A program made the position numbers and the translations under genes. Positions 47,808 through 60,578 of a DNA stretch of 64,000 nt are shown here, one piece after another. Each line of letters starts with the position of its first letter. The first letter of the stretch is position 1. The DNA is from Baekduia alba. Lineage in GTDB: Bacteria > Actinomycetota > Thermoleophilia > Solirubrobacterales > Solirubrobacteraceae. The notes below the pieces were generated by a model that saw only the letters and a list, made by a program, of their open reading frames with translations, was not told the origin of the DNA and did no database searches. The stretch is taken from the NCBI RefSeq assembly GCF_028416635.1, contig NZ_CP114013.1:1736001-1800000 (forward strand). Reading direction: 5' to 3'.

Positions 47808-50138
47808 ATGGCGGCCACCGAGCAGCAGCGTCCGTCGCTGGCCACGCTGGAGGCGGTGCAGGATCGCGTCCTGTGGCTGGCGACGTCGATCATCCACCAC
47901 GCCAACAAGGTCCGCTCGACGCCTTCGGGCGTGAAGGTGGGCGGCCATCAGGCGTCGTCGGCGTCGATGGTCTCGATCATGACCGCGCTCTGGTTCGACC
48001 ACCTGCGCGGCCCTGACCGCGTGTCGGTCAAGCCGCACGCCTCGCCGGTGCTGCACGCGATCGAGTACCTGCTCGGCCAGCTCGATCCCGAGCACCTCAC
48101 GACGCTACGCGCGTTCGGCGGGTTGCAGTCCTACCCGAGCCGGCTCAAGGACCCGGTGCCGGCGGACTTCTCGACGGGCTCGGTCGGCATCGGCGCGACC
48201 GCGCCGATCTGGAGCGCGATCGCCCACCGCTACGTCGCCGGGCACTTCGAGGTGCCCCAAGGCGGGCGCCAGGTCGCGCTGCTGGGCGACGCCGAGCTGG
48301 ACGAGGGCGCGATCTGGGAGACGCTCGTCGACCCCGTCGTGCCCCACCTCGGCGAGGTGCTGTGGATCGTCGACCTCAACCGCCAGTCCTTGGACCGGAT
48401 CGTCCCCGACATCGCGGCGGGCCGCATCGCCGCGATGTTCGACGCCGCCGGCTGGCAGACCATCACCGTGAAGTACGGGCGCTGGCTGCGCGAGCTGTTC
48501 GAGCGCGACGGCGGCGGCGCGCTGCGCAAGCGCATCGACCAGATGCCCAACGAGGAGTACCAGCGGCTGCTGCGCTCCGGGCCCGACGAGCTGCGCGACC
48601 GGCTGCCCGGCGAGGGGCGCGGCGTGCGCGACCTCACGAAGCTGATCGGCGACCTCGACGACGACGAGCTGCTGCGCGCGATCCGCGACCTCGGCGGCCA
48701 CGACCTCGCCGACCTGCGCGACGCCTACGCCCAGGCCGACGCGGTGACCGACCGGCCGTCGGTCATCTTCGCCTACACCATCAAGGCGTGGCGCCTGGCG
48801 ACGCAGGGCCACCCGGCCAACCACTCCGCGTTGCTCGGCGCCGCGCAATGGCGCGACCTGGCGGGCGCGACCGGCGCCGACGCCGACGCTCCATGGGCGC
48901 GCTTCGCCGAGGACTCCGACGAGGCCACCCTGTGCCGCGCGACGGCGGCGCGGCTGACCCGCCCGAAGACCGAGCTGACCACCGCGCCGGCGCCGCCCGC
49001 CGACGTGGGCCGCGCACACGGCGGCCGCGCCTCGACGCAGCAGGCGTTCGGGCGGTTCTTCGTCGACCTGTCGCACAAGGCGCCGGAGGTCGCGGCGCGC
49101 GTCGTGACCGTCTCGCCCGACGTCGCGTCGTCGACCAACCTCGGCGGCTGGATCAACCACGTCGGGATCTGGCACCTCGGCGACCGCATCGACTGGTTCG
49201 CCGACGACACCGACACCTTGGTCCGCTGGCGCGAGAGCGCGCACGGCCAACACGTCGAGCTGGGGATCGCCGAGGGCAACCTGGTGGGGTTGCTCGGCGA
49301 GCTCGGCGCGACGTGGTCGCGCGACGGCCAGGCGCTGCTGCCGATCGGGACGATCTACGACCCGTTCGTCAACCGCGCGCTGGAGCCCTGGTCGTTCGGC
49401 ATGTACGCCGGCGGGCAGTCGATCCTGGTCGGCACGCCGTCGGGCGTCACGCTCGCGCCGGAGGGCGGCGCGCACCAGTCGATCATCACGCCGTCGGTCG
49501 GCCTGGAGCAGCCGCGCTGCGTGGCGTGGGAGCCGGCGTTCGGCCAGGACCTGGAATGGACGTTGTTGTCCGCCTTGAGCCAGCTCGGGCGCCCGGACGG
49601 CACGTCGGCCTACTTCCGGCTGACGACGCGGCCGATCGACCAGGCGCTGGCGGACGTGCCGGACGACGCCGAAGCGCGCGAAGCCCGGCGGCGCGACGCG
49701 CTGCGCGGCGGCTACCGGCTGCGGGCCGCGCCTGGGACGCCCGCGCTCACCCTGGTCGGCGTCGGCGCGCTGCTGCCGGAGGTGTGCGCGGCGGCCGACG
49801 CGCTCACCGGCGCGGGCATCGCGTGCGACGTCGTCTGCCTCACGTCGCCCGACCTGGTCTTCCGCGCGCTGCAGGCGCGCCAGGGTCTGGCCGACGGCGA
49901 CGACGGGATCCTCGACGCGCTGCTGCCCGCCGACCGCGCGGCGCCGATCGTCAGCGTCCTGGACGGCCACCCGCACACGCTGAGCTTCCTGTCGGCGATC
50001 CGCTGCGTGCCGATCGCCTGCCTGGGCGTCGACGACTTCGGCCAGTCCGGCGACGTCGACGACCTGTACCGGTACTTCGGCATCGACACCGAGACGATCG
50101 TCGGCGCCGCCGTGGACCTCCTGGAGACGAGCTCGTGA
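47808..50138 (+). CDS. Pyruvate dehydrogenase E1-type component (single-chain, AceE/transketolase-like)
   Basis: A 776-residue thiamine-diphosphate enzyme of the homodimeric E1 type. The N-terminal ThDP domain has SVKPHASPVLHAIEYLLGQL and GDAELDEGAIWETL, with LNRQSLDRIV about 30 residues on completing the GD-x~28-N cofactor motif. The central domain has HVELGIAEGNLVGLLG, carrying the catalytic glutamate, and the C-terminal domain has GTPSGVTLAPEGGAHQSI. It is shorter than AceE (about 890). It decarboxylates a 2-oxoacid, probably pyruvate, and acylates E2. It is the first gene of the operon. Confidence 0.9.
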   Translation: MAATEQQRPSLATLEAVQDRVLWLATSIIHHANKVRSTPSGVKVGGHQASSASMVSIMTALWFDHLRGPDRVSVKPHASPVLHAIEYLLGQLDPEHLTTLRAFGGLQSYPSRLKDPVPADFSTGSVGIGATAPIWSAIAHRYVAGHFEVPQGGRQVALLGDAELDEGAIWETLVDPVVPHLGEVLWIVDLNRQSLDRIVPDIAAGRIAAMFDAAGWQTITVKYGRWLRELFERDGGGALRKRIDQMPNEEYQRLLRSGPDELRDRLPGEGRGVRDLTKLIGDLDDDELLRAIRDLGGHDLADLRDAYAQADAVTDRPSVIFAYTIKAWRLATQGHPANHSALLGAAQWRDLAGATGADADAPWARFAEDSDEATLCRATAARLTRPKTELTTAPAPPADVGRAHGGRASTQQAFGRFFVDLSHKAPEVAARVVTVSPDVASSTNLGGWINHVGIWHLGDRIDWFADDTDTLVRWRESAHGQHVELGIAEGNLVGLLGELGATWSRDGQALLPIGTIYDPFVNRALEPWSFGMYAGGQSILVGTPSGVTLAPEGGAHQSIITPSVGLEQPRCVAWEPAFGQDLEWTLLSALSQLGRPDGTSAYFRLTTRPIDQALADVPDDAEAREARRRDALRGGYRLRAAPGTPALTLVGVGALLPEVCAAADALTGAGIACDVVCLTSPDLVFRALQARQGLADGDDGILDALLPADRAAPIVSVLDGHPHTLSFLSAIRCVPIACLGVDDFGQSGDVDDLYRYFGIDTETIVGAAVDLLETSS

Positions 50139-51376
50139 CCGAGATCACCATGCCCAAGTTGTCCGACTCGATGGAGGAGGGCACGATCCTGACGTGGCTG
50201 AAGGCCGACGGCGAGACGGTCGCCGCGGGCGAGGACCTCGTCGAGATCGAGACCGACAAGGCCACCGTGACGCATCCGGCCGACGCGGCGGGCGTGCTGA
50301 GCATCGTCGCGCCGGAGGGCACGTCGCTGCCGGTCGGCGCGACGATCGCGCGGGTGGGCGAGGCGAGCGAAGGCGCGCCGCCGACACCCCGCGAGAGCGC
50401 GCCGAGGTCCAGCGGCGCCGAGATCCCGGCCGGGGCGAACGGCAACGGCGTCGTCTCACCCGCCACGGTGAAGGCGACGCCGCTGGCCCGTCGCATCGCC
50501 GCCCGGCACGACGTGGCGCTCGACGACGTCGCCGGCTCCGGTCCGCTCGGTCGCGTGACGCGCGCCGACGTCCTGCAGCGCGCCGGCGTCGACGACCCGC
50601 TCACGCTGCCGAGCGCGCGGCCCGCCACCGCTGCGCCGGCCGTCGCACCACCACCGTCTTCGCCCGCGGCGGCCCCCGCCCCCGGCGGCGCGAAGGGCGA
50701 CGTGGAGGTCGTCGAGCCCACGCGGCTGCAGGCCGTCGTGGCCCGGCGCATGGCCGAGGCCAAGGCGACGATCCCGCACTTCCAGGTGCAGACCGATGTC
50801 GCGATGGATGCGGCGATCGCCTTTCGGGCGCAGCTGAAGGCCACCGGCGCCGACGCGCCCTCGTTCAACGACCTCGTCGTCAAGGCCGCGGCGCTGGCGC
50901 TGCGGGCGCACCCGCTGGCCAATGGCTCCTACCGCGACGGGCGCTTCGAGCAGTACGCGCGGATCAACGTCGGGATCGCGGTGGCCGCCGACGGCGCGCT
51001 CGTCGTCCCGACGATCTTCGACGCCGACGAGAAGTCGCTCGGCGCGATCGCCGCCGAGGCGCGGCGCCTGGCCGGCCGCGTGCGCGAGGGTACGGTGAGC
51101 CCGCCCGAGCTGGCCGGCGCGACGTTCACGGTGTCCAACCTCGGCATGTACGGGATGACCGCGATCACGCCGGTGATCAACGCGCCGCAGGCCGCGATCC
51201 TCGGCGTGGGGGCGATGCGTGAGGTGCTGGCGCGCGTCGACGGCGAGATCGTCGATCGCCAGCTCATGACGCTGACGCTCAGCTGCGACCACCGGATCCT
51301 CTACGGCGCCGAGGCCGCGCAGTTCCTGTCCGACCTCCGCGCGCTGCTCGAGCAGCCGCTGCGCCTCGCGCTCTGA
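50135..51376 (+). CDS. Dihydrolipoamide acyltransferase E2
   Basis: A 413-residue E2 with an N-terminal lipoyl domain (lipoyl lysine near residue 42 in EIETDKATV), a Pro/Ala linker, a peripheral subunit-binding domain (ATPLARRIAARHDVALDDVA near 115) and a catalytic CAT domain. The active-site motif reads SCDHRILYGAEAAQF: the histidine is present but the usual aspartate of DHxxxDG is a tyrosine. To my knowledge cyanobacterial and plastid E2s also have this tyrosine. GTG at 50135 overlaps the E1 stop by four bases. Confidence 0.92.
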   Translation: MTEITMPKLSDSMEEGTILTWLKADGETVAAGEDLVEIETDKATVTHPADAAGVLSIVAPEGTSLPVGATIARVGEASEGAPPTPRESAPRSSGAEIPAGANGNGVVSPATVKATPLARRIAARHDVALDDVAGSGPLGRVTRADVLQRAGVDDPLTLPSARPATAAPAVAPPPSSPAAAPAPGGAKGDVEVVEPTRLQAVVARRMAEAKATIPHFQVQTDVAMDAAIAFRAQLKATGADAPSFNDLVVKAAALALRAHPLANGSYRDGRFEQYARINVGIAVAADGALVVPTIFDADEKSLGAIAAEARRLAGRVREGTVSPPELAGATFTVSNLGMYGMTAITPVINAPQAAILGVGAMREVLARVDGEIVDRQLMTLTLSCDHRILYGAEAAQFLSDLRALLEQPLRLAL

Positions 51377-51380
51377 GAGC

Positions 51381-52724
51381 ATGTCCGACACGACGTTCGA
51401 TGTCATCGTCATCGGCTCCGGTCCCGGCGGCTATGTGGCTGCCGTGCGTTCGGCGCAGCTTGGTCTGAGCACGGCGGTGATCGAGCGCGACGGCGTCGTC
51501 GGCGGTCGCTGTTTGAACTACGCGTGCATCCCGGCCAAGGCGGTGCTGCGCTCGGCCGATATCTTGAGCGAGGTCCGCGACGCCGGGGAGTTCGGGATCA
51601 GCCTGAACGGGACCGAGCCGACGGTCGACTTCGGCGCGATCGGCGAGCGGCGCACGAAGGTCATCACGACGCTGACCGGCGGCGTGTCGGGGTTGTTCAA
51701 GAAGAACGGCGTCGAGGTCATCGCCGGTGAGGCGTCGCTGACGCCCGACGGCCAGGTCAAGGTCGGCGACACGGTGTACACGGCCAACAAGGCGGTGGTG
51801 TTGGCGACCGGCAGCGTCAAGAGGGCGCTGCCGGGCCTGGAGTTCGGCGCCAACGTGATCGGGACCGAGGAGGCGTGGGCGCTGAGCGAGCTGCCCGAGA
51901 CGCTGGCGGTCATCGGCGCGGGGGCGTCGGGGACCGAGATCGCCAGCGCCTATCAGCGCCTGGGCTCGGACGTCACGTTGTACGAGGGCCTGGACCGGGT
52001 GCTGCCGACCGAGGACGCCGACATCTCCAAGGCCGCCGCCCGCGGGTTCAAGAAGCAGGGCATCACGGTCAAGACCAACACGTTCTTCGACCCGGCCGAC
52101 GCCGGCGGCTTCGACTGGGTCGTGATCGCCGCCGGCCGCGGGCCGGATGTTGCAGCACTTGGTCTGGAGGCCGCCGGCGTCGAGCTGACCGAGCAGGGCC
52201 TGATCAAGGTCGACGGCGCGCTGCGCACGTCCAAGGCCAAGGTGTATGCCATCGGCGACCTCGTCCCCGGCCCCGCGCTCGCGCACAAGGCCTCAGACGA
52301 GGGGATCATCGCCGTCGAGGACGCCGCCGGCCACAAGACGCACCCGATCTCCTACCTCGACATCCCGCGCGCGACGTTCTGCACCCCGAACGTCGGCAGC
52401 TTCGGGCTGACCGAGGAGCAGGCCAGGGAGCAGGGCTACGACGTCGTCGTCGGCAAGGTCCAGTACGGCGCCGTGGGCGCGGGCACGGTCTACGGCGACC
52501 GCACCGGCGTCATCAAGATCGTCGGCGACAAGACCTACGGCGAGATGCTCGGCGGCCACATCGTCGGCACCCGCGCCACCGAGCTCATCCAGGAGCTCGT
52601 CAACGCCAAGCTCGCCGAGGCCGGCTACCCGGACGTCGCGCGCATGATCCACGGCCACCCGACGCTCTCCGAAGGTGTGATGGAGGCGGCCCGCGCCGCC
52701 GACGGGTGGCTGATCCACGGCTGA
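51381..52724 (+). CDS. lpdA: Dihydrolipoyl dehydrogenase E3
   Basis: A 447-residue flavoprotein that re-oxidises the lipoyl group. FAD binding: VIGSGPGGYVAAVRSAQLGL. The redox disulfide is in GGRCLNYACIPAKA (C-x4-C; the usual CLNVGC is CLNYAC). NAD binding: VIGAGASGTEIASAYQRLG. The C-terminal HGHPTLSEGVMEA holds the catalytic His-Glu pair. It is slightly shorter than typical E3s (about 460-470). It starts four bases after the E2 stop, completing an E1-E2-E3 operon. Confidence 0.95.
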   Translation: MSDTTFDVIVIGSGPGGYVAAVRSAQLGLSTAVIERDGVVGGRCLNYACIPAKAVLRSADILSEVRDAGEFGISLNGTEPTVDFGAIGERRTKVITTLTGGVSGLFKKNGVEVIAGEASLTPDGQVKVGDTVYTANKAVVLATGSVKRALPGLEFGANVIGTEEAWALSELPETLAVIGAGASGTEIASAYQRLGSDVTLYEGLDRVLPTEDADISKAAARGFKKQGITVKTNTFFDPADAGGFDWVVIAAGRGPDVAALGLEAAGVELTEQGLIKVDGALRTSKAKVYAIGDLVPGPALAHKASDEGIIAVEDAAGHKTHPISYLDIPRATFCTPNVGSFGLTEEQAREQGYDVVVGKVQYGAVGAGTVYGDRTGVIKIVGDKTYGEMLGGHIVGTRATELIQELVNAKLAEAGYPDVARMIHGHPTLSEGVMEAARAADGWLIHG

Positions 52725-53058: not shown

Positions 53059-54051
53059 ATGCGCTTCCGCAACCTCGGCGACTCCGACGTCCAAGTCTCC
53101 ACGATCTCGCTCGGCTCGTGGCTCACGTACTCAGGCGGCGTCGAGCGCGACGCCACCGAGGCGTGCACGCGCGCGGCGTTCGAAGCGGGAGTCACGTTCT
53201 TCGACACGGCCAACGTCTACGGCGCCGGTGCATCAGAGACCGCGTGGGGTGAGATCCTCAAGGACTACCCTCGCGACTCCTACATCTTGGCGACCAAGGT
53301 GTTCTTCCCGATGTCGGACGCTGACCGCGGCCTGTCCGCGGCGCAGATCGCCAAGCAGATCGACGCGTCGCTGCAGCGGTTGCAGACCGACCACGTCGAC
53401 CTGTACCAGTGCCATCGCTTCGATCCGACCGTCCCGATCGAGGAGACGATGGAAGCGCTTTCGGAAGTCGTGCGCTCCGGCAAGGCCCGGGCGATCGGGT
53501 TCTCGGAGTGGAACCCGGAGCAGATCCGCGCCGGCCTCGCCGTCGAGAGCGCGGTCAAGTTCGTGTCGTCGCAGCCGCAGTACAGCGCTCTGTGGCGCGG
53601 GCCCGAGGCGGAGGTCTTCCCGGTCTGCTCCGAGAACGGCATCTCGCAGGTCGTGTGGTCGCCGTTGGCCGAGGGCGTCCTGACCGGCAAGTACCAGCCG
53701 GGCGAGCCACCGCCGCCTGACTCGCGCGCGGCGAGCGACTCGATGTCGACGTTCATCAAGCGCCGCCTGGACGACCGCGCGCTGGACGCCGTCCAGGAGC
53801 TCCTGCCGATCGCCGATGGCCTCGGCCTCTCGCCGGCCCAGCTGGCGCTGGCCTGGGTCCTGCGTCGCCCAGAGGTCGCCTCGGCGATCGTCGGCGCGTC
53901 ACGCCCCGAGCAGGTGTTCGACAACGCCAAGGCGTCCGACATCGACCTCGACGACGACACGATCGCGGCGATGGACGCCGTGCTGGCACCGGTGGCGATC
54001 ATCGACCCCCAGCCCGCGCCGGGCTTCCAACCGGGCGTCCTGCATCGCTGA
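53059..54051 (+). CDS. Aldo-keto reductase (YghZ / Kv-beta-like)
   Basis: A 330-residue NADPH-dependent AKR barrel. The catalytic residues appear as Asp in FFDTANVYGAGASE, Tyr within NVYG, Lys in ILATKVFFP and His in YQCHRFDPTVP. GFSEWNPEQIRAG and SQPQYSALWRGPE follow. The Q-x-x-Y-x-x-x-x-R pattern and length fit the Kv-beta/YghZ subgroup that reduces aldehydes such as methylglyoxal. ATG at 53059 (MRFRNLGDS) is the conserved start. The following 54052-54338 contains no gene I can support. Confidence 0.9.
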   Translation: MRFRNLGDSDVQVSTISLGSWLTYSGGVERDATEACTRAAFEAGVTFFDTANVYGAGASETAWGEILKDYPRDSYILATKVFFPMSDADRGLSAAQIAKQIDASLQRLQTDHVDLYQCHRFDPTVPIEETMEALSEVVRSGKARAIGFSEWNPEQIRAGLAVESAVKFVSSQPQYSALWRGPEAEVFPVCSENGISQVVWSPLAEGVLTGKYQPGEPPPPDSRAASDSMSTFIKRRLDDRALDAVQELLPIADGLGLSPAQLALAWVLRRPEVASAIVGASRPEQVFDNAKASDIDLDDDTIAAMDAVLAPVAIIDPQPAPGFQPGVLHR

Positions 54052-54338
54052 GCTCGGGGTGGTCGGTCGGCACGGCGGGGGTTCTCAACTGCCCGAGGCC
54101 CAGCGGTGGCCAGGCAAGCGCGGTCGTGTGTGCCCCTCTCGCTCCCGGTCGCTGCAGTCGCCGGTGGCTCCTGCACGATCGTGCCGGTCACCCGCCTCGC
54201 CGACCGCGCCCATGTGGCTCCATCCGGGCCCACTCTCGTGGGGTCGCCGTCTCGCTCAGCCGGATCGGTGCCGCCATCTCCGGGCTCCGGGCTGGAGATC
54301 CGAGCCCCGATCCGGCCGCCCCGTGTCCTGCCTGCCGC

Positions 54339-55418
54339 TCAGCCCACGTCGATGTAGATGACTTCCACGGCGTTGTTGCCGTATCCGAGGCGGTTCCAGG
54401 GCGGGACCTCTGGTTGGGTGTGGCCGGCGGCGTCCGTCGCCCGGGCGCGAAGCGTGTGGCGTCCGACGTCGTCGGCCGCCCAGTCGAACGACCACTCCTG
54501 CCAGTGGTACGGCCCGGTGGGCGGTTCGAGGTGGGCCGGGTGCCAGTCGCCCTCACCCGTCAGGCTGACCTCCACGCGGGTCACCGGACCCGTCCCCGAC
54601 CACGCCTTGCCGCGCACCGTGTGCGTTCCCGGCTCGAGCCTCGCGCCGGCGGCAGGCGCGGTGATGCGCGCGCGCACGCGCATCAGGCTGACCGCCTCGT
54701 GCTCGCGGTCGGGCCATTCGTAGATGTAGTGGCCGGTCTGGAACTCGCCGGCGTAGGGCTCGGCGAGCACGTCGATGCGCGCGAGCCACTTCACGGAGGC
54801 GACGGCGTACCAGTGCGGCACGATGAGCCGGAAGGGCGCACCGTGATCGGCGCGCAGCGGCGCGCCGTTCATCTCGTAGGCGATCAGGATCTCGGCGGCT
54901 GGGTCGACGGCGAGCGCAAGCGGGAGCGAGCGCACGAAGCGCAGGTCGTCTTTGTTGGTGTCCTTCAGGACCGGGTTGAGGTGATAGGCGCCCGCGTCGG
55001 CGCCCGAGAACCGCACGTCGACCCCTTCGGGCGACGGATGGACCCGGTTCAGGACGTCGTGCAGCCGGGCGCCCCGCCAGCGCGCCGTCGAGACCGCGTA
55101 GTCCCCCCAGGGCTCGCCGATCGGGAGCGGCCGGGTCTCCAGACGCCCGTTGCCCGCGCACTCCAAGGTGACCGCGCGCTCGTGGGACGGCATCGCTCGC
55201 AAGTCGTCGAGCGTCAGCGTGGTCGGGTGCTCCACGGCGCCGCCGATCTCCAGCGTGCCGTCGTGCGTGGGCACGGCGAAGTTGCTGCGGACGTAGTGGA
55301 GGTGGGTCGGGGTGATCTCGCCCTCCAGCGCCTCGGGCGGCGCCTCCGCGTTGTACGGGGCCGGGTTGATCATCTGCAGCGCGGCGCGATCACGGGCGAA
55401 CTGGTCGGCTAGGGCCAT
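54339..55418 (-). CDS. Sulfite-oxidase-family molybdopterin oxidoreductase
   Basis: A 359-residue protein with the Moco-binding sulfite oxidase domain and the C-terminal Mo-co dimerisation domain. The molybdenum-ligand cysteine is Cys87 in VTLECAGNGR. ADHGAPFRLIVPHWYAVASV is the conserved region near the cofactor, and KWLARIDVLAEPYAGEFQ follows. No heme domain and no Tat signal is present, so it is probably cytoplasmic and uses an unknown electron acceptor. The substrate could be sulfite or another oxo-acceptor. It is the last gene of the five-gene operon, 46 bases after the crotonase gene. Confidence 0.9.
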   Translation of the reverse strand: MALADQFARDRAALQMINPAPYNAEAPPEALEGEITPTHLHYVRSNFAVPTHDGTLEIGGAVEHPTTLTLDDLRAMPSHERAVTLECAGNGRLETRPLPIGEPWGDYAVSTARWRGARLHDVLNRVHPSPEGVDVRFSGADAGAYHLNPVLKDTNKDDLRFVRSLPLALAVDPAAEILIAYEMNGAPLRADHGAPFRLIVPHWYAVASVKWLARIDVLAEPYAGEFQTGHYIYEWPDREHEAVSLMRVRARITAPAAGARLEPGTHTVRGKAWSGTGPVTRVEVSLTGEGDWHPAHLEPPTGPYHWQEWSFDWAADDVGRHTLRARATDAAGHTQPEVPPWNRLGYGNNAVEVIYIDVG

Positions 55419-55464
55419 GGCTGGGGCTCCTCGGGGGTGGGTGGTTCACGCCGGGCGCCGCGCA

Positions 55465-56331
55465 TCAGTAGTCGGCGTCCTTGAAGGTGGGCTCGCGGCC
55501 CTCGTTGAACGCGCCGATGCCCTCGACGCGATCCGGGTGGACGGCCGACCGCCAATGCATGTCCATCATGATCGCGATCGCCTGCTCGATCGGCTGCCCC
55601 TCGCCGAGTTGGACGGCCCGCTTGACGGCCTGCACCGCTGTTGGGGAGTTGCTCGCGATCTTCGTCGCGATGCGCCGTGCCGCCTCGAGCAGCTCGTCCT
55701 GCGGGTGGAGCTCGTTGACCATGCCGAGCCGGTGCGCCTCCTGCGCGGTGATCGGGTCGCCGGTCATGAGCATCTGCAGGGCCCGGCCCGGCGGCAGCAG
55801 CCGCGGCAGGAGCGCCGGCGAGCCGCCACCTGCCGCGAGACCGAGCATCGCCTCCGGTTGCCCGAAGGTGGCGTTCTCCGCGGCGATGATGAAGTCGGTG
55901 CTCTGGGCGAGCTCGCAGCCGCCGCCGTAGGCGGTCCCGTTCACGGCGGCGAAGATCGGCTTGCGCAGCTGGCGGACCGTGTAGAGCGTCCGGTCGAAGT
56001 CCTGGCGCTGGCGCAGCCAGTCCTCCTTGGTCATGTTCTTGCGCTGGCGCAGGTCGCTGCCGACGGAGAACGCGCGCTCGCCCGCACCAGTGAGGATCAC
56101 CGCTCGGACCGCCGTCCGCGTGGCGATCGTCTCGACGATCTCCGTCAGCCGGGCCCCCATCTCGGTGGTGATCGCGTTGTCGGCGTGGGGGCGGTTGAGG
56201 GTGATCAGCGCCACTCGGCCCTCGTCGAGGTCGTCGACGAGGACCGGTGAGTCGGGCTCTTCGAGGCCGGACGGCGGCGGGCCGAAGTCGAGGGTGCTCC
56301 ACCGGTCGGTGCGGGTCGCGTTCGTGGTCAT
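55465..56331 (-). CDS. Crotonase / enoyl-CoA hydratase family protein with an altered active site
   Basis: A 288-residue crotonase-fold protein. The oxyanion-hole segment is AVNGTAYGGGCELAQSTDF. The first catalytic glutamate is kept in FGQPEAMLGL. The second, in the A-M-E-M block of true hydratases, is Gln here (GRALQMLMTGD), and the usual GGTQRLPR is GGGSPALLPR. It is thus unlikely to be a simple hydratase; isomerase, hydrolase or lyase activity is possible. An N-terminal extension of about 35 residues precedes the fold. It is 29 bases downstream of the DyP gene. Confidence 0.87.
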   Translation of the reverse strand: MTTNATRTDRWSTLDFGPPPSGLEEPDSPVLVDDLDEGRVALITLNRPHADNAITTEMGARLTEIVETIATRTAVRAVILTGAGERAFSVGSDLRQRKNMTKEDWLRQRQDFDRTLYTVRQLRKPIFAAVNGTAYGGGCELAQSTDFIIAAENATFGQPEAMLGLAAGGGSPALLPRLLPPGRALQMLMTGDPITAQEAHRLGMVNELHPQDELLEAARRIATKIASNSPTAVQAVKRAVQLGEGQPIEQAIAIMMDMHWRSAVHPDRVEGIGAFNEGREPTFKDADY

Positions 56332-56360
56332 GTCGTGCTCCTCGGGTAGCTCCGGGCCGG

Positions 56361-57704
56361 TCACGTCTCGAGCTCCGCCAGCCAGCGCATCGCACGCAGG
56401 CTCGGGACGAAGCAGTACTCGCCGCCGCGCGTGACGACGAACGGCGGCAGCTCCTGCAGCCGGCGGCGGATCGGTCGCGCGGGCACGGTGAACGTGCCGG
56501 TGCCGTCGTTCGCGCCGACCAGCGGATCCTTCTCCTCCGGGGCGCCGATGAAGATGCCGTCGTTCAGCCACTGGGTCTTGACGAACTCGAACTGGCGACC
56601 GATGTGCGTGCCGGCGAACACGAACACGATCCCGCGGTCGGCGCCGTCGTCCTCGAGCACGCCCTCGGGGAGCGTGGGCCCGTAGCTGGTGCCGCGGCGG
56701 ATCATGCGGTGCAGGCGAACGTCGACCGCGCCGTCGCCGTCGAAGGCGTCACGGGGGTTGGCGCGTCGCGCGTGGGCGCCGAGCGGGCACTTGAGGCCGC
56801 GCGGGTCATCCCCGTAGGCGTAGTCGTTGTGGCGCTGCGGGTCGGCGCCGAGCGCTGGGTCGTCGCGCTCGGGCGAGACCGCAAGCGGCGCGCCGCTCTG
56901 CCACCGCCCGACCATCTTGGCGCCGAGGAGCGCGGCTTCCTCGCGGCTGGCGCTCTTCGCGCGCAGGTACTGCCGGTAGGCGGCCACGCGCGTGTGGAGC
57001 TTGCGGAAGACGATGTACGTGCCGTTTCGACCGAGGACGTCCGGGACCGGCATCGGCGGCAGCTCACCCGTCTCATCCGGGTAGCCGAGGATGATCTCGC
57101 CGGGCTTGAGAGGACGCTCGCGGGGGTTGGACGGTGGCCGGCCGCTGCCCTCGACCGCCGGCTGCCCGATCCCGTCCTTGAAGCCGAAGGAGGTCCGGCC
57201 CGTCGGCAGTTGGTAGCAGTCCTGCCGCCAGATCAGCTCGACGCCGGCCAGCTCCCGTTCGGCGCGCAGGGCCTTGTCGACCACGGCCTGCAGCCGCGCG
57301 GCATCGGGGGACAGGGCCGCCAAGGCGACGTGGACGTCGGGCGAGCCGAGCGGCTTCTCCCAGTGCTGAGGGCTGCTCTGTCCCACGTCTCCCAGCTCGG
57401 CGGCGCGGGCGGCCATGCCTTGCCGGAACTCCGGCGCGAAGCTGTCCAGGGAGGCCTGCGGCACGCCCAGCGCCTCGAGACCGTTGTACGTGAAGGCCGC
57501 GGTGATCCACGCGTCGCGAGCGGGATCGGTCGATGGTCGTCCCGTGTCGACGATGCCGTGCAGCCGCCCGACCAGCTCGCGCCCCGCGGCGCGATCGTCG
57601 ATGCGCAACAGCAGGTAGGTGCCGACGTAGGGCGACGGGCGCTCGTGCAGCGCCCCACTCTGGATGTCGTCGAGCTCCAGCCGGATGCCCTCAGTCGCCG
57701 TCAT
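56361..57704 (-). CDS. Dye-decolorizing (DyP-type) heme peroxidase
   Basis: A 447-residue DyP peroxidase of two ferredoxin-like halves. The distal catalytic Asp177 is in the G-x-x-D-G motif (FGFKDGIGQP), the proximal heme ligand is His311 in GAHARRANPRD, and the distal arginine is in HRMIRRGTSYGP. The absence of a Tat signal places it in the cytoplasm. DyPs are often encapsulin cargo, but no encapsulin gene or C-terminal targeting peptide is seen; the protein ends in RWLAELET. It is 20 bases downstream of the DUF4331 gene. Confidence 0.93.
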   Translation of the reverse strand: MTATEGIRLELDDIQSGALHERPSPYVGTYLLLRIDDRAAGRELVGRLHGIVDTGRPSTDPARDAWITAAFTYNGLEALGVPQASLDSFAPEFRQGMAARAAELGDVGQSSPQHWEKPLGSPDVHVALAALSPDAARLQAVVDKALRAERELAGVELIWRQDCYQLPTGRTSFGFKDGIGQPAVEGSGRPPSNPRERPLKPGEIILGYPDETGELPPMPVPDVLGRNGTYIVFRKLHTRVAAYRQYLRAKSASREEAALLGAKMVGRWQSGAPLAVSPERDDPALGADPQRHNDYAYGDDPRGLKCPLGAHARRANPRDAFDGDGAVDVRLHRMIRRGTSYGPTLPEGVLEDDGADRGIVFVFAGTHIGRQFEFVKTQWLNDGIFIGAPEEKDPLVGANDGTGTFTVPARPIRRRLQELPPFVVTRGGEYCFVPSLRAMRWLAELET

Positions 57705-57724
57705 GGCTGCACGCCCGCCATCGC

Positions 57725-58858
57725 TCAGTGATGCTCGGGCGGATCGGGCGGATCCGGGTTGGGCTCGGCCAGGTACGGGAACGTGCGAGTGCCCGGGCGC
57801 GTCGACCGATCGACGCCGTCGCGGATCACGGGTCCGGTGCCCGCGTTGATGATCTGCGTGTAGATGATGTCCATCACGTCGTCGTTGAGCGTCCGTCCGC
57901 CGCACGTCTGATGCGCCTCGCCACGCAGCGCGGCCAACTCGATCTCCCAGTACGACCCGTGCTCGACGTAGGGCTTGGTCAGGTCGACGACGAGGTAGTC
58001 GGCGAGGACCAACTCGGTCAGCGGATGGCTGCCGTCCGCCCGTGGCGTCCAGTCGGCCTTGTCGTCCAGGCCGTCCCAGAAGGCCAGGTTGGCGTTCAGC
58101 CGGGCCCGGTAGGCCCCCAGGTAGCCGTCCGCCAGGGCGAATGCGTCCTCCATGTTGTAGAGGTCGCGGATCTCCAGGTCGCGGTTGACCGGGTCGAACT
58201 GCTTCGGGGCCAGCATCATGTTCTTGACCTCGGGCCGCCCGACGCGCTCGATCCGCACGTTGAACGAGCCACGAGTCAGCGTCTCGGCGACGACGGCCAC
58301 CAGCTCGGAGCCGCCGAGGAGCGCCGTGTCGAGCTCGACGACGAGGCTCAGGACGTCCTTGCCGTCGAGGTAGATCGACGACGGGTCGGTGAACGCCAGC
58401 TTGCCCGTGGCGATGGTCTTCAGCGCGGCGGGGGCGTCCATGATGAACGGGTCCCAGCGCGCGCCGGCGAAGACCCGGACGCCGTGCCCCTCGCCGCCGG
58501 CCGGATCGTTGACCCGGAAGGTCACGGTCTCGCCCCCCGGAAGGGTGCACGTGCCCTCCTGCTCGAAGCGCCGGGGCCCGTTGGGGTGCACGTGCGGCGA
58601 GAACACGGTGTCGAGGACGACCTCGTCGTCGCCCGCCGTGAACGGCGCCGCGTCGCCGTCCGCGCTCGGGGTGAGGGGCCGCAGCCGGAAGCGGTAGATG
58701 AGCCCCTCCGAGAGCGCGTCCCACGGCTTGGCGAACGGGAGCGTGTTCATGACCAGCACGAGGCGGCCGGGCCGCTCGGGGCTCGGGAAGGCGTACACGT
58801 CGGTGATGTCGGCGATCGGATCGGACAGCGCCCGCGGTCCGGAGATGTGGTCGGACAT
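57725..58858 (-). CDS. DUF4331 family protein
   Basis: A 377-residue protein of the DUF4331 family. The opening DPIADITDVYAFPSPERPGR and LVLVMNTLPF are the family signature, and GRTLNDDVMDIIYTQIINAG closes it. Family proteins are usually exported and of unknown function, predicted as a beta-propeller-like or beta-rich fold. This copy has no signal peptide, which fits the cytosolic peroxidase encoded next. ATG at 58858 follows the stop of the upstream gene by two bases, so they are tightly coupled. Confidence 0.85.
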   Translation of the reverse strand: MSDHISGPRALSDPIADITDVYAFPSPERPGRLVLVMNTLPFAKPWDALSEGLIYRFRLRPLTPSADGDAAPFTAGDDEVVLDTVFSPHVHPNGPRRFEQEGTCTLPGGETVTFRVNDPAGGEGHGVRVFAGARWDPFIMDAPAALKTIATGKLAFTDPSSIYLDGKDVLSLVVELDTALLGGSELVAVVAETLTRGSFNVRIERVGRPEVKNMMLAPKQFDPVNRDLEIRDLYNMEDAFALADGYLGAYRARLNANLAFWDGLDDKADWTPRADGSHPLTELVLADYLVVDLTKPYVEHGSYWEIELAALRGEAHQTCGGRTLNDDVMDIIYTQIINAGTGPVIRDGVDRSTRPGTRTFPYLAEPNPDPPDPPEHH

Positions 58859-58860
58859 GG

Positions 58861-59409
58861 CTAGTCCGCGGCCTCGTCGAGCAGCGGCTTGAGCGCCGGG
58901 TGCTGCAGCGCGCCGGCGGCGTCCGGGTGGTCGAGCACCTGCTGGAAGGCCGCGTTCACCCGCTGCGCCTTCCGGACTTCCTTGACGGTGCCGCCGTAGT
59001 TGCGGGCGTACGCCGCAGCGGTCTGCTGCGCGCTGAGGACGAAGCTCTTGACCGCGGCCACGTCCGGCAGGCCGTCGTAGCCCTCGGTGTGACGGAAGAT
59101 CACGTCGAAGAGCCCGAGCGTCGGCCCGGACGTGAAGAAGTCCTCCATGTAGGCGTCCCACGGGCCGTCGAAGCTCGTGATGAACGCCAGCCGCGTGTCG
59201 TCGTCGAACAACACGAACCGCGCCTCGTGGATCGACGAGATCGCCATCCCGTAGTCCCCCGGCCGGTAGCCAGGGGTGTCCTGCAGGTCACGCAGCGCCG
59301 CTCGCAACGGCGCGCCGTCGCCCGGCTTGACGCGGAAGAACAGGCTGAACTCGCTTGTCGGTCCGACGGTGACGCCGGGGCCGGGCGCTCCTCTCGCAGC
59401 CGTGGCCAT
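58861..59409 (-). CDS. Uncharacterised protein, possible dimeric alpha/beta-barrel fold
   Basis: A 182-residue protein, the first gene of the operon. The N-terminal half has strand-helix-strand patterns: EFSLFFRVKPGDGAPLRAAL, HEARFVLFDDDTRLAFITSF, then DGPWDAYMEDFF. This resembles the ferredoxin-like dimeric alpha/beta-barrel seen in DyP halves and related proteins. The C-terminal half is helical (KSFVLSAQQTAAAYARNYGG). It lacks the DyP catalytic motif. I do not recognise a named family. ATG at 59409. Confidence 0.75.
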   Translation of the reverse strand: MATAARGAPGPGVTVGPTSEFSLFFRVKPGDGAPLRAALRDLQDTPGYRPGDYGMAISSIHEARFVLFDDDTRLAFITSFDGPWDAYMEDFFTSGPTLGLFDVIFRHTEGYDGLPDVAAVKSFVLSAQQTAAAYARNYGGTVKEVRKAQRVNAAFQQVLDHPDAAGALQHPALKPLLDEAAD

Positions 59410-59732
59410 GCCTTCCCCTCTCAGAGCGCCGATCGAGACCGGCTCGCGGTACAGGCGCGCTGAGCGTGCCCGATTGCGGTCAGTGTTCCGCGGCTGGGGA
59501 GCCCGCGCATCACCTCTACCGGGTGATTGGCACGGCGGGTCTGGCGACCGCGCCGCGAACCGCCCTGCCCGATCGGCGGCGAACCCGCCGACCCGTCCCG
59601 AGCCGCGACGAAGCGGTTCTTCCTCGAGGATCTCCTGGCGTGGGTCGCGATCGACGACGCGTGGCCGTCTTCGAGCTCCAGGCGCGCGATGGACCGGAAG
59701 AGCGCGCGCAGCGCGCACGGCACGCCCGCGGC
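59410..59732. promoter_or_regulatory. Upstream region of the five-gene operon; no gene
   Basis: A 323-base gap before the five-gene operon (minus strand) and after the stop of the LuxR-type gene. It holds no convincing gene. A short dyad, ATCACC-(7 nt)-GGTGAT at 59509-59527, is the only regular structure I see. It should contain the operon promoter; no clear -35/-10 boxes are recognisable. Confidence 0.4.
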
Positions 59733-60446
59733 TCAGGCCTGCGGCTGCTCGGCGAGGTAGAGCAGCGTGGCCTTCACGCGGCGGGAGACGTCGGTCGCGT
59801 CGCTCAGCCCGAGCTTGAGGAAGATCCCGTTGATGTGCTTCTCGACGGCGCGCTTGGTCAGGACGAGCTCGTCGGCGATCGCCTGGTTGCTGGCGCCGCG
59901 GGCGATGAAGGTCAGGATCTCGAGCTCGCGTGGGGTGAGCTCGTTCAGCGGCGAGTGCTCGGAGCGACTGCGCTCCGCGATCAGGCCCTCGACGACCTTG
60001 GCGTCGATGAACGACCCGCCGTGGGCGACCGACTCGATCGCGGTGATGAGCTGGCCGCGATAATGAACGCGATCCTTGAGCAGGTAGGCGCGCCGATCGG
60101 CGCCGTCGTCCAGGAGCGCGAGCCCGTACCGTGGCTCGGCGAACTGGCTGAGGATCACGACGCCGACGTCCGGGTGGGACACGCGCAACTCTCGTGAGAC
60201 CCGCAGCCCCTCGTCGGTGTTCGTCGGCGGCATCCGGATGTCGGTGACGACGACATCCGGCGGGGCGGCCTCGACCGCGGCGATCAACGCGTCGTAGTCC
60301 GGGCAGGTCGCCACGAGGTCGATGCCGTCCGCAGCGCTGAGCACGTGGGTCACGGCCTCGCGCACGAGGTAGCTGTCGTCGGCCAACACGACCCGGAGGA
60401 TCCGGGGCTCGCCGAGCGACCGCGTGTCGGGCGCTTTGGAACTCAA
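59733..60446 (-). CDS. LuxR/NarL-type response regulator
   Basis: A 237-residue two-domain regulator. The receiver domain has the acidic pair in VVLADDSYLV and the phosphorylation aspartate in VVTDIRMPP, with lysine in YLLKDRVHY. The C-terminal HTH is LTPRELEILTFIARGASNQA, then KRAVEKHINGIFLKLGLSDA. It starts at TTG 60446. It lies next to and upstream of the five-gene operon, making it the prime candidate for its control, and is near a histidine kinase gene. Confidence 0.93.
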   Translation of the reverse strand: MSSKAPDTRSLGEPRILRVVLADDSYLVREAVTHVLSAADGIDLVATCPDYDALIAAVEAAPPDVVVTDIRMPPTNTDEGLRVSRELRVSHPDVGVVILSQFAEPRYGLALLDDGADRRAYLLKDRVHYRGQLITAIESVAHGGSFIDAKVVEGLIAERSRSEHSPLNELTPRELEILTFIARGASNQAIADELVLTKRAVEKHINGIFLKLGLSDATDVSRRVKATLLYLAEQPQA

Positions 60447-60578
60447 CGAGCCGACTATCCGTCATCGACACCATGCGCGTCAATGACCGCCTGCGGCATG
60501 TCGTGCACGCACGTCACCGATCTGGTTGGGCGTGCCCTTGTGTCGCGAGGCGTCGGCCGGGGAGCCTCGGAGGCTGAC

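Follow-up and report, generated by a model that had tools for sequence, protein, structure and literature searches.

For many DyP peroxidases, neither the natural substrate nor the way in which the enzyme is activated has been settled. Some of these enzymes have dedicated gene partners, and EfeUOB, DtpA-GlxA and the encapsulin systems are presented as such in the accessible part of PMC8197335. The DyP of Deinococcus radiodurans (DR_A0145; PDB 8RE2 and 8RE3) is blocked at neutral pH, and a role for interacting proteins such as encapsulin has been the subject of speculation (PMC10820274). Here, we analyze a DyP gene present in a 64,000-nucleotide stretch of the Baekduia alba genome (contig NZ_CP114013.1, positions 1,736,001 to 1,800,000; hereafter the window). 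The window DyP, whose closest solved relative is the D. radiodurans enzyme, likewise appears to have dedicated partners, but none of those named for EfeUOB, DtpA-GlxA or encapsulin in the accessible part of PMC8197335 is present in its five-gene unit. An exported DyP of the EfeB/Tat type was ruled out on the basis of its TIGR01412 score (25.5 bits against 428) and the absence of an RR pair in the first 35 residues, and an encapsulin-cargo DyP was ruled out by the neighbours, the encapsulin gene being located at 4454226 and the operon near 1794000, which is 2.66 Mb apart.

Organization and spread of the five-gene unit

The first-pass annotation had proposed an operon of five minus-strand genes at 54339-59409 with gaps of 2, 20, 29 and 46 bases, and this layout is exact to the base (Table 1). 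It had also described a redox gene set lacking export signals. The redox character is upheld, and a hydropathy scan, which is not a trained signal-peptide predictor, detected no hydrophobic N-terminus in the five proteins, nor two consecutive arginines within their first 35 residues.

Table 1. Location of the five genes and of the adjoining features in the window
Feature	Positions	Strand	Remarks
G1	58861-59409	-	182 aa; no Pfam/NCBIfam family above cut-off
DUF4331 protein	57725-58858	-	377 aa; PF14224 E 2.3e-25
DyP, Dyp-type haem peroxidase (predicted)	56361-57704	-	447 aa; TIGR01413 108.1 bits
Crotonase-fold protein	55465-56331	-	288 aa; ECH_1 E 4.8e-60
Sulfite-oxidase-family molybdoenzyme	54339-55418	-	359 aa; PF00174 E 5.2e-48, PF03404 E 3.3e-12
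Palindromic operator (predicted) TCACCC-N5-GGGTGA, one mismatch	59510-59526		centre 109 nt upstream of G1 start codon
Response regulator, GerE domain	59733-60446	-	adjoins operon, outside conserved unit; possible alternative regulator

A scan seeded with G1 returned 35 loci (36 with that of the window), and in 31 of the 35 all five genes are present in the same order and on the same strand. The operon-like unit is thus conserved, which argues for more than a chance grouping; scattering of the genes among relatives, the outcome that had been held to speak against a unit, is absent from these 31 loci of the G1-seeded scan. The hosts are for the most part Actinomycetota and belong to many families. 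In the 32 complete copies, 4 to 125 nt separate the aligned ends, and when the matrices of pairwise identity are compared among the five proteins, r values of 0.73 to 0.87 are obtained. Furthermore, in a tree (11 sampled) the DyPs of the five-gene loci form a single clade (100/100), inside which the DyP of Kribbella steppae is placed apart from that of K. pittospori, as expected of transfer between genera. We conclude that the operon is well supported by the conservation of its order, and that the five genes are a horizontally mobile unit, kept as one fixed set across distantly related bacteria. The unit is also carried by short contigs of MAGs that bear Chloroflexi and Acidobacteria labels. 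These may be misbinned, and we do not lean on the cross-phylum spread, which rests on them, in our main reasoning.

The biochemical steps of the five proteins form no obvious chain, as might be expected of genes that share no function and simply move as a group. However, the order and strand retained in 31 of 35 loci from many families, the correlated divergence, and one operator common to 22 of 36 loci (see below) make this explanation very improbable. The fixed gene set and the diversity of its enzymes could indicate a complete catabolic or biosynthetic pathway in which the five enzymes act on one compound in sequence. This seems quite improbable to us, as none of the other genes in the 36 loci is a constant companion of the unit and the scanned neighbours vary. 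Every ORF family that recurs in more than nine of the 36 loci lies inside the operon, and the upstream neighbours mostly differ among the 18 that were scanned, PLDc_N/SHOCT proteins recurring in three and DUF2254 in two. Nor did the ORF families of the 36 loci and 20 scanned neighbours reveal a constant regulator or transporter beside the operon. As the first-pass annotation had supposed, no described pathway with this set of five genes was found in the open-access literature, among the matches listed.

G1, DyP and the accompanying proteins

On profile and motif, the window DyP fits a predicted Dyp-type peroxidase. It exceeds the TIGR01413 cut-off of 100.5 bits, and Pfam DyP_N falls just under its own (27.3 against 27.5). 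The residues G174-F-K-D177-G178 correspond to the GXXDG motif, H311 would be the proximal histidine and R336 the distal arginine; in the 32 complete copies, all of these are invariant (D177, H311 and R336 included) except K176.

A tight pairing of the DUF4331 and DyP genes had been emphasized earlier. The two genes do form a tight pair, but a secondary one: the link between G1 and DyP is older, and the DUF4331 gene lies between these two. In 30 of 31 plasmid records a distant homologue of G1 has a DyP gene next to it, the D. radiodurans DyP being one of these, and G1 is the constant gene neighbour of one DyP subgroup. A 346-residue neighbour in Nostoc was considered as a catalase relative and was rejected upon comparison. 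G1 itself, reported before as unrecognised, indeed belongs to no Pfam or NCBIfam family above cut-off. Residues G12, H61, R64, D69, D81, D85 and Y87 are invariant among 18 diverse homologues. The fold model of G1 (pLDDT 72.8) suggests an alpha+beta, ferredoxin-like fold, possibly of the ABM type, and its best structural match is WhiE-ORFI (VIA Z 10.4; 107 aligned residues, 3.5 A), the other matches listed having Z scores of 5.5 to 8.2 and the best Foldseek E value being 1e-3. No sequence match of G1 backs this putative antibiotic biosynthesis monooxygenase-like fold, and a search of the Protein Data Bank by sequence gave no credible relative of either G1 or the DUF4331 protein. The latter reaches the PF14224 gathering score (90.1 bits against a cut-off of 27), and its model (pLDDT 73.8) yielded only weak immunoglobulin-like matches in the fold search, with a Z score of 6.1 at best.

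In the crotonase-fold protein, E140 and E160 align with the two catalytic glutamates of the solved enoyl-CoA hydratase 1ey3, and both are invariant in the 32 complete copies. None of the NCBIfam equivalogs scored above cut-off (best 25 of 73 models). The molybdoenzyme contains the Oxidored_molyb and Mo-co_dimer domains, as in the sulfite oxidase family. Its residues C87, R44, R92, W104 and Y231 align to C185, R138, R190, W204 and Y322 of 1sox, a solved sulfite oxidase from chicken; presumably these are the Mo-ligating cysteine and substrate-pocket residues. All five are invariant in the 32 complete copies. The protein does not reach the equivalog scores of SorA, SorT and SoxC (177, 154 and 183 bits against cut-offs of 600, 570 and 420, respectively).

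A shared upstream operator and its putative targets

The putative operator TCACCC-N5-GGGTGA is present upstream of 22 of the 36 operon copies, against 0.35 expected by shuffling. The palindrome was spotted by eye in the same upstream regions in which it was later counted; the genome-wide counts are an independent test. In the B. alba genome it occurs at 40 places, against none for the reversed control; 35 of the 38 sites examined are intergenic, and at 17 of 34 sites the centre lies 43-47 nt from a start codon. Seven other host genomes contain 39 sites against one for the control, and a hand count across 201 genomes of the order gave 131 exact sites against 20 control matches. As a sequence element the predicted operator is therefore well supported. 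It is not universal, however. At 14 of the 36 loci there is no site within one mismatch, three of these having a two-mismatch site, and genome G196 carries the operon yet has no exact site anywhere. Among 20 other G1-DyP cassettes, an operator was found close upstream of G1 in L062 only. L043 has two sites, located upstream of the gene that precedes G1. Six sigma-factor promoter patterns showed no clear excess in the 36 regions upstream of G1 (0, 1, 3, 0, 0 and 0 matches), the three matches of the sigH-like pattern comparing with a shuffled mean of 0.7 and maximum of 4. When 54000-60500 was scanned for sigma-70 promoters, a single weak site came up, and nothing resembling a terminator was found in that interval.

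In its own genome the operator lies upstream of four of the five sulfatases and of the stronger of the two genes with an FGE (sulfatase-activating) domain, and it also precedes operons encoding SulP permeases and MalT-like (LAL) regulators. Two LAL proteins are encoded at 3.13-3.14 Mb of this genome. A hypergeometric figure of 1.8e-8, for which 45 of 5600 genes were taken as targets, should be read as a rough indication. Sulfatases or FGE adjoin the operator in genomes G138, G090, G023, G042 and G160 and in Jiangella as well, and LAL genes are found next to operator sites in several genera. In two sets of operator regions from other genomes, 7 of 20 and 6 of 20 lacked any neighbour similar to a labelled target. 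Through the shared operator the operon is connected with sulfatases, an FGE gene, sulfate permeases and stress genes, and a wider stress and sulfate-ester gene set appears to be switched on together with it. No description of this regulon was found in the open-access literature, among the matches listed. Because the operator is common to sulfatases and an FGE gene, the putative sulfur link of the operon has gained support from sequence. As acid-stress-like, transport and sulfur genes all occur among the targets, these name no substrate.

With respect to the regulator, the neighbour in the window is a response regulator and not an LAL. Control of the operon by this protein and the adjacent histidine kinase would fit its GerE domain, and a 56% identical regulator is located beside the regulon block at 3.92 Mb. 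However, when the 36 loci were compared, no more than 5 of them, that of the window included, showed a related regulator, and the recurrence of LAL genes beside operator sites in several genera argues for an LAL instead; we regard control by the response regulator as rather unlikely.

Possible functions and relation to known systems

We give even chances to the reading that the mobile operon encodes a cytosolic peroxide-driven oxidation module belonging to an LAL-controlled stress and organosulfur regulon. The substrate, the regulator and the chemistry of this module are what we infer as follows. DyP would oxidise a small, probably hydrophobic substrate with a peroxide. G1 would be its dedicated partner, either turning the resting, blocked haem active or passing substrate to DyP, and the DUF4331 protein could be the third member of the complex. 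The hydratase may add water to an unsaturated acyl-CoA derived from the substrate. In the cytosol, sulfate may be formed by the sulfite-oxidase-type enzyme from sulfite or from an anion like it. The operator suggests that TCACCC-N5-GGGTGA upstream of G1 would be bound by a large regulator of the LuxR family related to MalT (LAL).

It is possible, though not likely, that the module serves defence against lipid peroxides. DyP-G1 would then clear fatty-acyl hydroperoxides or their breakdown products, the hydratase would disarm reactive enoyl thioesters, and the sulfite oxidase would remove sulfite, which peroxidases can turn into radicals. Elsewhere, G1-DyP is accompanied by catalase-like proteins, and fatty-acid genes lie near it, namely those for 3-hydroxyacyl-CoA dehydrogenase, oleate hydratase and thioesterases. 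On the other hand, we found no lipid substrate reported for this DyP subgroup in the literature consulted, and a scan of three five-gene copies (L069-L071) for the catalase-like gene did not detect it.

Another candidate role is scavenging of organosulfur compounds. DyP, G1 and the DUF4331 protein would free sulfite from soil sulfonates by oxidation, the molybdoenzyme would turn this sulfite into usable sulfate, and the co-regulated sulfatases would do likewise for sulfate esters. Besides the sulfatase and FGE targets in B. alba and the other genomes, this idea draws on Rhodococcus koreensis, where an arylsulfatase gene is found less than 3 kb from G1-DyP-catalase, and on an alkanesulfonate monooxygenase gene before G1-DyP in Acinetobacter lwoffii. 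However, a Pfam search of 30 operator-near proteins detected no sulfonate monooxygenase or transporter and no cysteine-synthesis family, and general stress is the more natural context for the decarboxylase, DUF308, PPK2, the chloride channel and the cation ATPase; scavenging seems rather unlikely. The most far-reaching version of our proposal holds that G1 represents a new class of obligatory DyP partners, able to turn resting, hydroxide-blocked DyP active at neutral pH, that the five-gene form is a new oxidative desulfonation or organosulfur module, and that this module is part of a so far undescribed regulon of stress and sulfate-ester genes, controlled by an LAL and spread across genera of soil Actinomycetota; taken as a whole, we consider it unlikely. 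Detoxification of a CoA compound, suggested in the first-pass annotation, is one possibility that our data neither support nor refute.

Some described systems share parts of this arrangement. The molybdoenzyme has the domain order and pocket residues of 1sox but, unlike sulfite oxidases and dehydrogenases, lacks a haem domain and a signal peptide. The operator half-site GG[GA]TGA resembles the MalT box GGA[TG]GA given in the accessible part of PMC9628970, and LAL genes adjoin operator sites here; the operator differs, however, in being an inverted repeat with a 5-bp spacer, and the LAL target sets described in the accessible parts of the sources are unlike the sulfatases, SulP, decarboxylase and DyP operon found here. 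For the LAL SCO6993, the accessible part of the paper gives no matching operator, and the Leptospirillum 'och' operon (PMC9080137), in connection with which DyP and an oxidative-stress operon are mentioned, concerns other genes in the part of the text available.

In the case of the rhizobial clusters of Sinorhizobium chiapasense (L107) and Bradyrhizobium CB82 (L110), G1, DyP and DUF4331 are located near a molybdoenzyme, as in the window. Their DUF4331 proteins are 34-35% identical to that of the window but are fused to a Polyketide_cyc2 domain, their molybdoenzymes carry a molybdopterin cofactor-binding annotation and have 2Fe-2S and cytochrome c partners, and the gene order differs.

The closest parallel for the G1-DyP pair is found in D. 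radiodurans. The whole length of the 8RE2/8RE3 chains matches the DyP of the record examined, and a single base separates the gene from the G1 homologue in front of it. The proximal histidine and the distal aspartate and arginine align between the two enzymes, whereas the motif is GXXDM in D. radiodurans and GXXDG in the window. Unlike the window operon, the D. radiodurans cluster contains a 3-hydroxyacyl-CoA dehydrogenase and a catalase-like gene, and the 15 annotated genes covered there include no DUF4331, hydratase or sulfite oxidase. The conserved neighbour of this DyP, blocked as it is at neutral pH, makes G1 a direct partner candidate.

The five genes as a conserved mobile set

The first-pass annotation had described five minus-strand genes separated by gaps of 2, 20, 29 and 46 bases, and the ORFs and sequence agree with it to the base. 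Its family names, and the lack of an assignment for the 182-residue protein G1, were likewise borne out by Pfam and NCBIfam; every enzyme of the unit falls in a known superfamily. In line with the missing export signals noted then, none of the five proteins has a hydrophobic N-terminus. Of the redox operon that it proposed, the conserved gene set stands as an observation; that the five genes are co-transcribed we infer. Apparent genes for pyruvate dehydrogenase E1 and E2 and dihydrolipoamide dehydrogenase, recognized by eye from translations, lie near the operon on the genome's single 5.86 Mb contig.

Coordinates of the features discussed (G000, own genome; L numbers, individual loci)
Feature	Location	Coordinates	Strand	Remark
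G1	window	58861-59409	minus	no family above cut-off in Pfam or NCBIfam
DUF4331	window	57725-58858	minus	Pfam and NCBIfam agree with first-pass name
DyP	window	56361-57704	minus	Pfam and NCBIfam agree with first-pass name
Hydratase-like (crotonase-fold)	window	55465-56331	minus	Pfam and NCBIfam agree with first-pass name
Sulfite-oxidase-type	window	54339-55418	minus	Pfam and NCBIfam agree with first-pass name
Candidate operator	window	59510-59526
Apparent pyruvate dehydrogenase genes	window	47808-52724	plus
Neighbour of about 335-345 residues	L105	4969-5979
Same	L106	4950-5963
Same	L109	7350-8390
Same	L064	9814-10818
Same	L065	10048-11082
DUF4331-Polyketide_cyc2 (SRPBCC) fusion	L107	8321-9820		rhizobial plasmid
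Same	L110	7587-8834		rhizobial plasmid
Second DUF4331 gene	G000:C1	5433600-5434649		L135:5601-6650
Encapsulin (Linocin_M18) gene	G000:C1	4454226-4454972
G1, DUF4331, DyP pieces	L042	4133-6802		Rhodococcus sp. ARC_M6
DyP C-terminus-like stretch	L011	13930-14070
Same	L012	13934-14074

A scan of the genome collection with G1 as seed yielded 35 loci, each of which was then searched by tblastn with all five proteins. All five genes, with order and strand kept, were found in 31 of the 35 (L009-L030 and L033-L041), so that the co-occurrence put forward earlier as a check is indeed seen across genomes. One of these copies (L011) contains frame breaks, and another (L028) has internal gaps and a contig that ends within the last gene. 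Among the other loci, L031 breaks off within DUF4331, where its contig stops; L032 carries the first four genes, the fifth not being detectable by tblastn in the remaining 1.3 kb of the contig; in L043 a G1 of 41% identity is directly followed by DyP; and in L042 the arrangement is scrambled, the broken and rearranged pieces reflecting either decay of the copy or faulty assembly. Being seeded by close relatives of G1, the scan is uninformative on hydratases and molybdoenzymes elsewhere.

In the 32 complete copies (the window, two from the genome search and 29 from the scan), aligned ends are separated by 4 to 125 nt, a figure that counts the stop codons, and the identity matrices of the five proteins correlate with r values of 0.73 to 0.87. 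No further gene constantly accompanies the unit when the ORF families of 36 loci are compared. Flanking genes were called with a codon-usage script, and a Pfam scan of 18 upstream and two downstream neighbours showed them to differ mostly between loci, with PLDc_N/SHOCT upstream in three, DUF2254 in two and the others single. In two Arthrobacter genomes (L011 and L012), a further stretch with 51-60% identity to the DyP C-terminus over 47 residues is found downstream of the operon, on the opposite strand.

The unit is rare and patchy. G1 matches were found in 10 of 396 genomes of the phylum, in 6 of 201 of the order (five at no less than 70% identity) and in two of five of the genus; DUF4331 of the window type (at least 70% identity) occurs in 2 of the 396, the remaining matches reaching at most 54 bits. 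G196, a genome of the host's own family, has its G1 match at contig coordinates identical to those of locus L010 of Solirubrobacter pratensis, which places the host in one family with that species. In the DyP tree, the 11 sampled DyPs of five-gene units form one clade (support 100/100), within which Kribbella steppae stands apart from K. pittospori, and the latter groups with Terrabacter (98/98). Together, the conservation, the DyP tree and the varied flanks match the picture expected of an operon that is self-contained and has been transferred, and they show the five genes to be a conserved mobile set.

The older G1-DyP pair

Distant G1 homologues, all below 60% identity, were found in 31 plasmid-collection records and paired by eye with DyP matches by position. 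In 29 records the listed G1 match and a DyP share a strand and are no more than about 1.1 kb apart, G1 being upstream in 28 and downstream in one; in a thirtieth (NZ_CP108366) a second G1 copy is the DyP-adjacent one, and in NZ_CP109357 the distance is 6.7 kb among the matches listed. DyP matches occur in 84 plasmid records, so DyP is also found without G1 and the converse of the rule fails.

The partners of the pair vary. A catalase-family gene accompanies it in annotated records of Deinococcus radiodurans, Ketogulonicigenium, Rhodococcus, Sphingomonas, Methylorubrum and Acinetobacter, and a 3-hydroxyacyl-CoA dehydrogenase in Deinococcus and Acinetobacter. In actinobacterial genomes, two plasmids of Streptomyces and one of Nostoc, the neighbour is another unassigned protein, some 335-345 residues long; the pairs compared share 59-86% identity, and no Pfam match was obtained for it in L105, L106 and L109. 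Sinorhizobium chiapasense and Bradyrhizobium CB82 also combine the pair with DUF4331 and a molybdoenzyme; their DUF4331 proteins are fused to a Polyketide_cyc2 domain and are 34-35% identical to that of the window. The rhizobial plasmid clusters with this fusion include genes of cytochrome c, 2Fe-2S and molybdopterin enzyme type. From the pairing in plasmid records and the varied partners it therefore follows that G1 and DyP are the core, to which DUF4331, hydratase and molybdoenzyme were added in this lineage. The own genome holds a second DUF4331 gene, whose product starts with MSHH and lacks an export signal; a separate preceding gene has a Tat-like N-terminus.

Active sites and possible roles

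Alignments show that the predicted active sites of DyP, hydratase and molybdoenzyme are intact. Asp177, His311 and Arg336 of the window DyP, which has a regular GXXDG motif, are present in all 32 complete copies. The hydratase-like protein retains both catalytic glutamates, and no equivalog was assigned to it among the NCBIfam models listed. On the detoxification of a CoA compound raised in the first-pass annotation, which is conceivable, its presence implies that an acyl-CoA is involved somewhere, but no further gene constantly accompanies the unit. In the molybdoenzyme, for which neither a haem domain nor an export signal was found, the Cys and four pocket residues are invariant and align with those of a solved sulfite oxidase, and the enzyme may handle sulfite.

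The closest solved structure to the window DyP is that of D. radiodurans (E 4.5e-127; entries 8RE2 and 8RE3, PMC10820274). In the record examined, that same DyP has a G1 homologue one base upstream. The enzyme is reported to be inactive at physiological pH, with a six-coordinate low-spin haem, and its authors suggested that other proteins may govern its activity; the words "operon", "gene cluster" and "neighbour"/"neighbor" do not occur in its main text (PMC10820274). An encapsulin gene of the own genome is located far from the operon.

The fold model of G1 has a predicted beta-alpha-beta-beta-alpha order. Its best structural matches belong to the ABM/SchA-like alpha+beta group, with WhiE-ORFI first (Z 10.4, 107 residues, 3.5 A); the others shown have Z values of 5.5 to 8.2. 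DyP itself has been assigned to the wider ferredoxin alpha+beta barrel superfamily (PMC4835899, in the part available). Across 18 diverse homologues, seven residues (G12, H61, R64, D69, D81, D85 and Y87) never vary, so that G1 may well have a working site rather than being a mere spacer. G1 and DUF4331 could act on or with DyP.

A candidate operator common to sulfatase and stress genes

Upstream regions were read at 36 window-type loci, namely 33 of the 35 scan loci (including the partial L031 and L032), the window and two further genomes of the order (G063 and G138). Allowing up to one mismatch and a spacer anywhere from 2 to 9, we found the palindrome TCACCC-N5-GGGTGA in 22 of the 36, versus 0.35 in first-order shuffles; seven copies are exact and 20 of the 22 have spacer 5. 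Three of the 14 loci without it have a two-mismatch copy. In the window its centre lies 109 nt from the G1 start. Because the palindrome had been spotted by eye in those regions, the genome-wide count is an independent test: with up to one mismatch allowed, it recurs at 40 places in the own genome, 9 of them exact, versus none for a backward-read control. Of the 38 covered by the 26 regions fetched, 35 are intergenic if positions up to 60 nt into a gene are allowed, versus 15.4% expected under the same rule. Among the 34 places that have a start codon no more than 400 nt away, 17 have their centre 43 to 47 nt from it, a typical activator position if transcripts are leaderless.

Exact sites occur in 60 of 201 genomes of the order (131 sites by hand count of the list, versus 20 for the control); the genomes with window-type G1 have nine (G000), eight (G138), four (G063), three (G199) and none (G196). 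In seven genomes that host other operon loci, exact sites number 39, versus one for the control. Among 20 other G1-DyP cassettes, 18 lack the operator within 2 kb upstream of G1. L062, which is built differently and comes from a different family within the phylum, carries an exact site 204 nt ahead of G1 and two sites near its catalase-like gene. In the L043 cassette two sites lie upstream of the preceding hydrolase gene.

The same candidate operator is shown to be common to the operon and a sulfatase and stress gene set. It is found upstream of four of the five own-genome sulfatase genes, with centres at 36, 44, 84 and 348 nt (in the last case a divergent gene is closer), and 46 nt upstream of the stronger of two FGE-domain genes. 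Two of the four SulP permeases are in site-headed same-strand runs, and two are beside sites without clear direction. The other targets, by Pfam, are a pyridoxal-dependent decarboxylase, which we take to be glutamate decarboxylase, DUF1269, DUF6325/SHOCT, PLDc_N/SHOCT, DUF7144, chloride channel, DUF2252, DUF1254/1214, baeRF, cation ATPase, PPK2, DUF308, SfLAP, M20 peptidase, a holin/phosphodiesterase-type protein and a thioredoxin-like protein. Of the 30 proteins near sites that were scanned, four had no Pfam family. One exact site heads a minus-strand run of DUF1269, a 226-residue protein, SulP, a LAL (large MalT-like LuxR regulator) and, after 227 nt, a second LAL, both with GerE and one also with TPR_MalT.

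Within the order, 20 regions around exact sites were taken from nine further genomes, and a target-like neighbour is present in 13 and absent in seven; the neighbours include sulfatases (G138, G090, G023, G042), FGE (G160), decarboxylase, DUF7144, DUF1269 and LAL. A second set of 20 regions, covering 28 of the 39 sites, came from Jiangella, Leifsonia, Arthrobacter, Nocardioides, Occultella and Kribbella. Target-like neighbours are present in 14, one being the operon itself, and absent in six; they comprise LALs, SulP, DUF7144, DUF1269, cation ATPase, chloride channel and, in Jiangella, a sulfatase. Eight of nine putative LALs have GerE, and the L196 fragment matches only AAA and TPR. The operator places mark a putative, apparently undescribed regulon common to several actinobacterial genera, in which the setting of the operon would be stress or organosulfur use.

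Among the matches listed, no description of the five-gene set, the G1 family or the operator was found in the open-access literature. The half-site is close to the MalT box, GGA[TG]GA, given in the accessible part of PMC9628970, and a LAL might bind the operator. In the portion of the 2021 DyP review available (PMC8197335), the partnerships described are EfeUOB, DtpA-GlxA and encapsulin, from all of which that of the five-gene unit differs.
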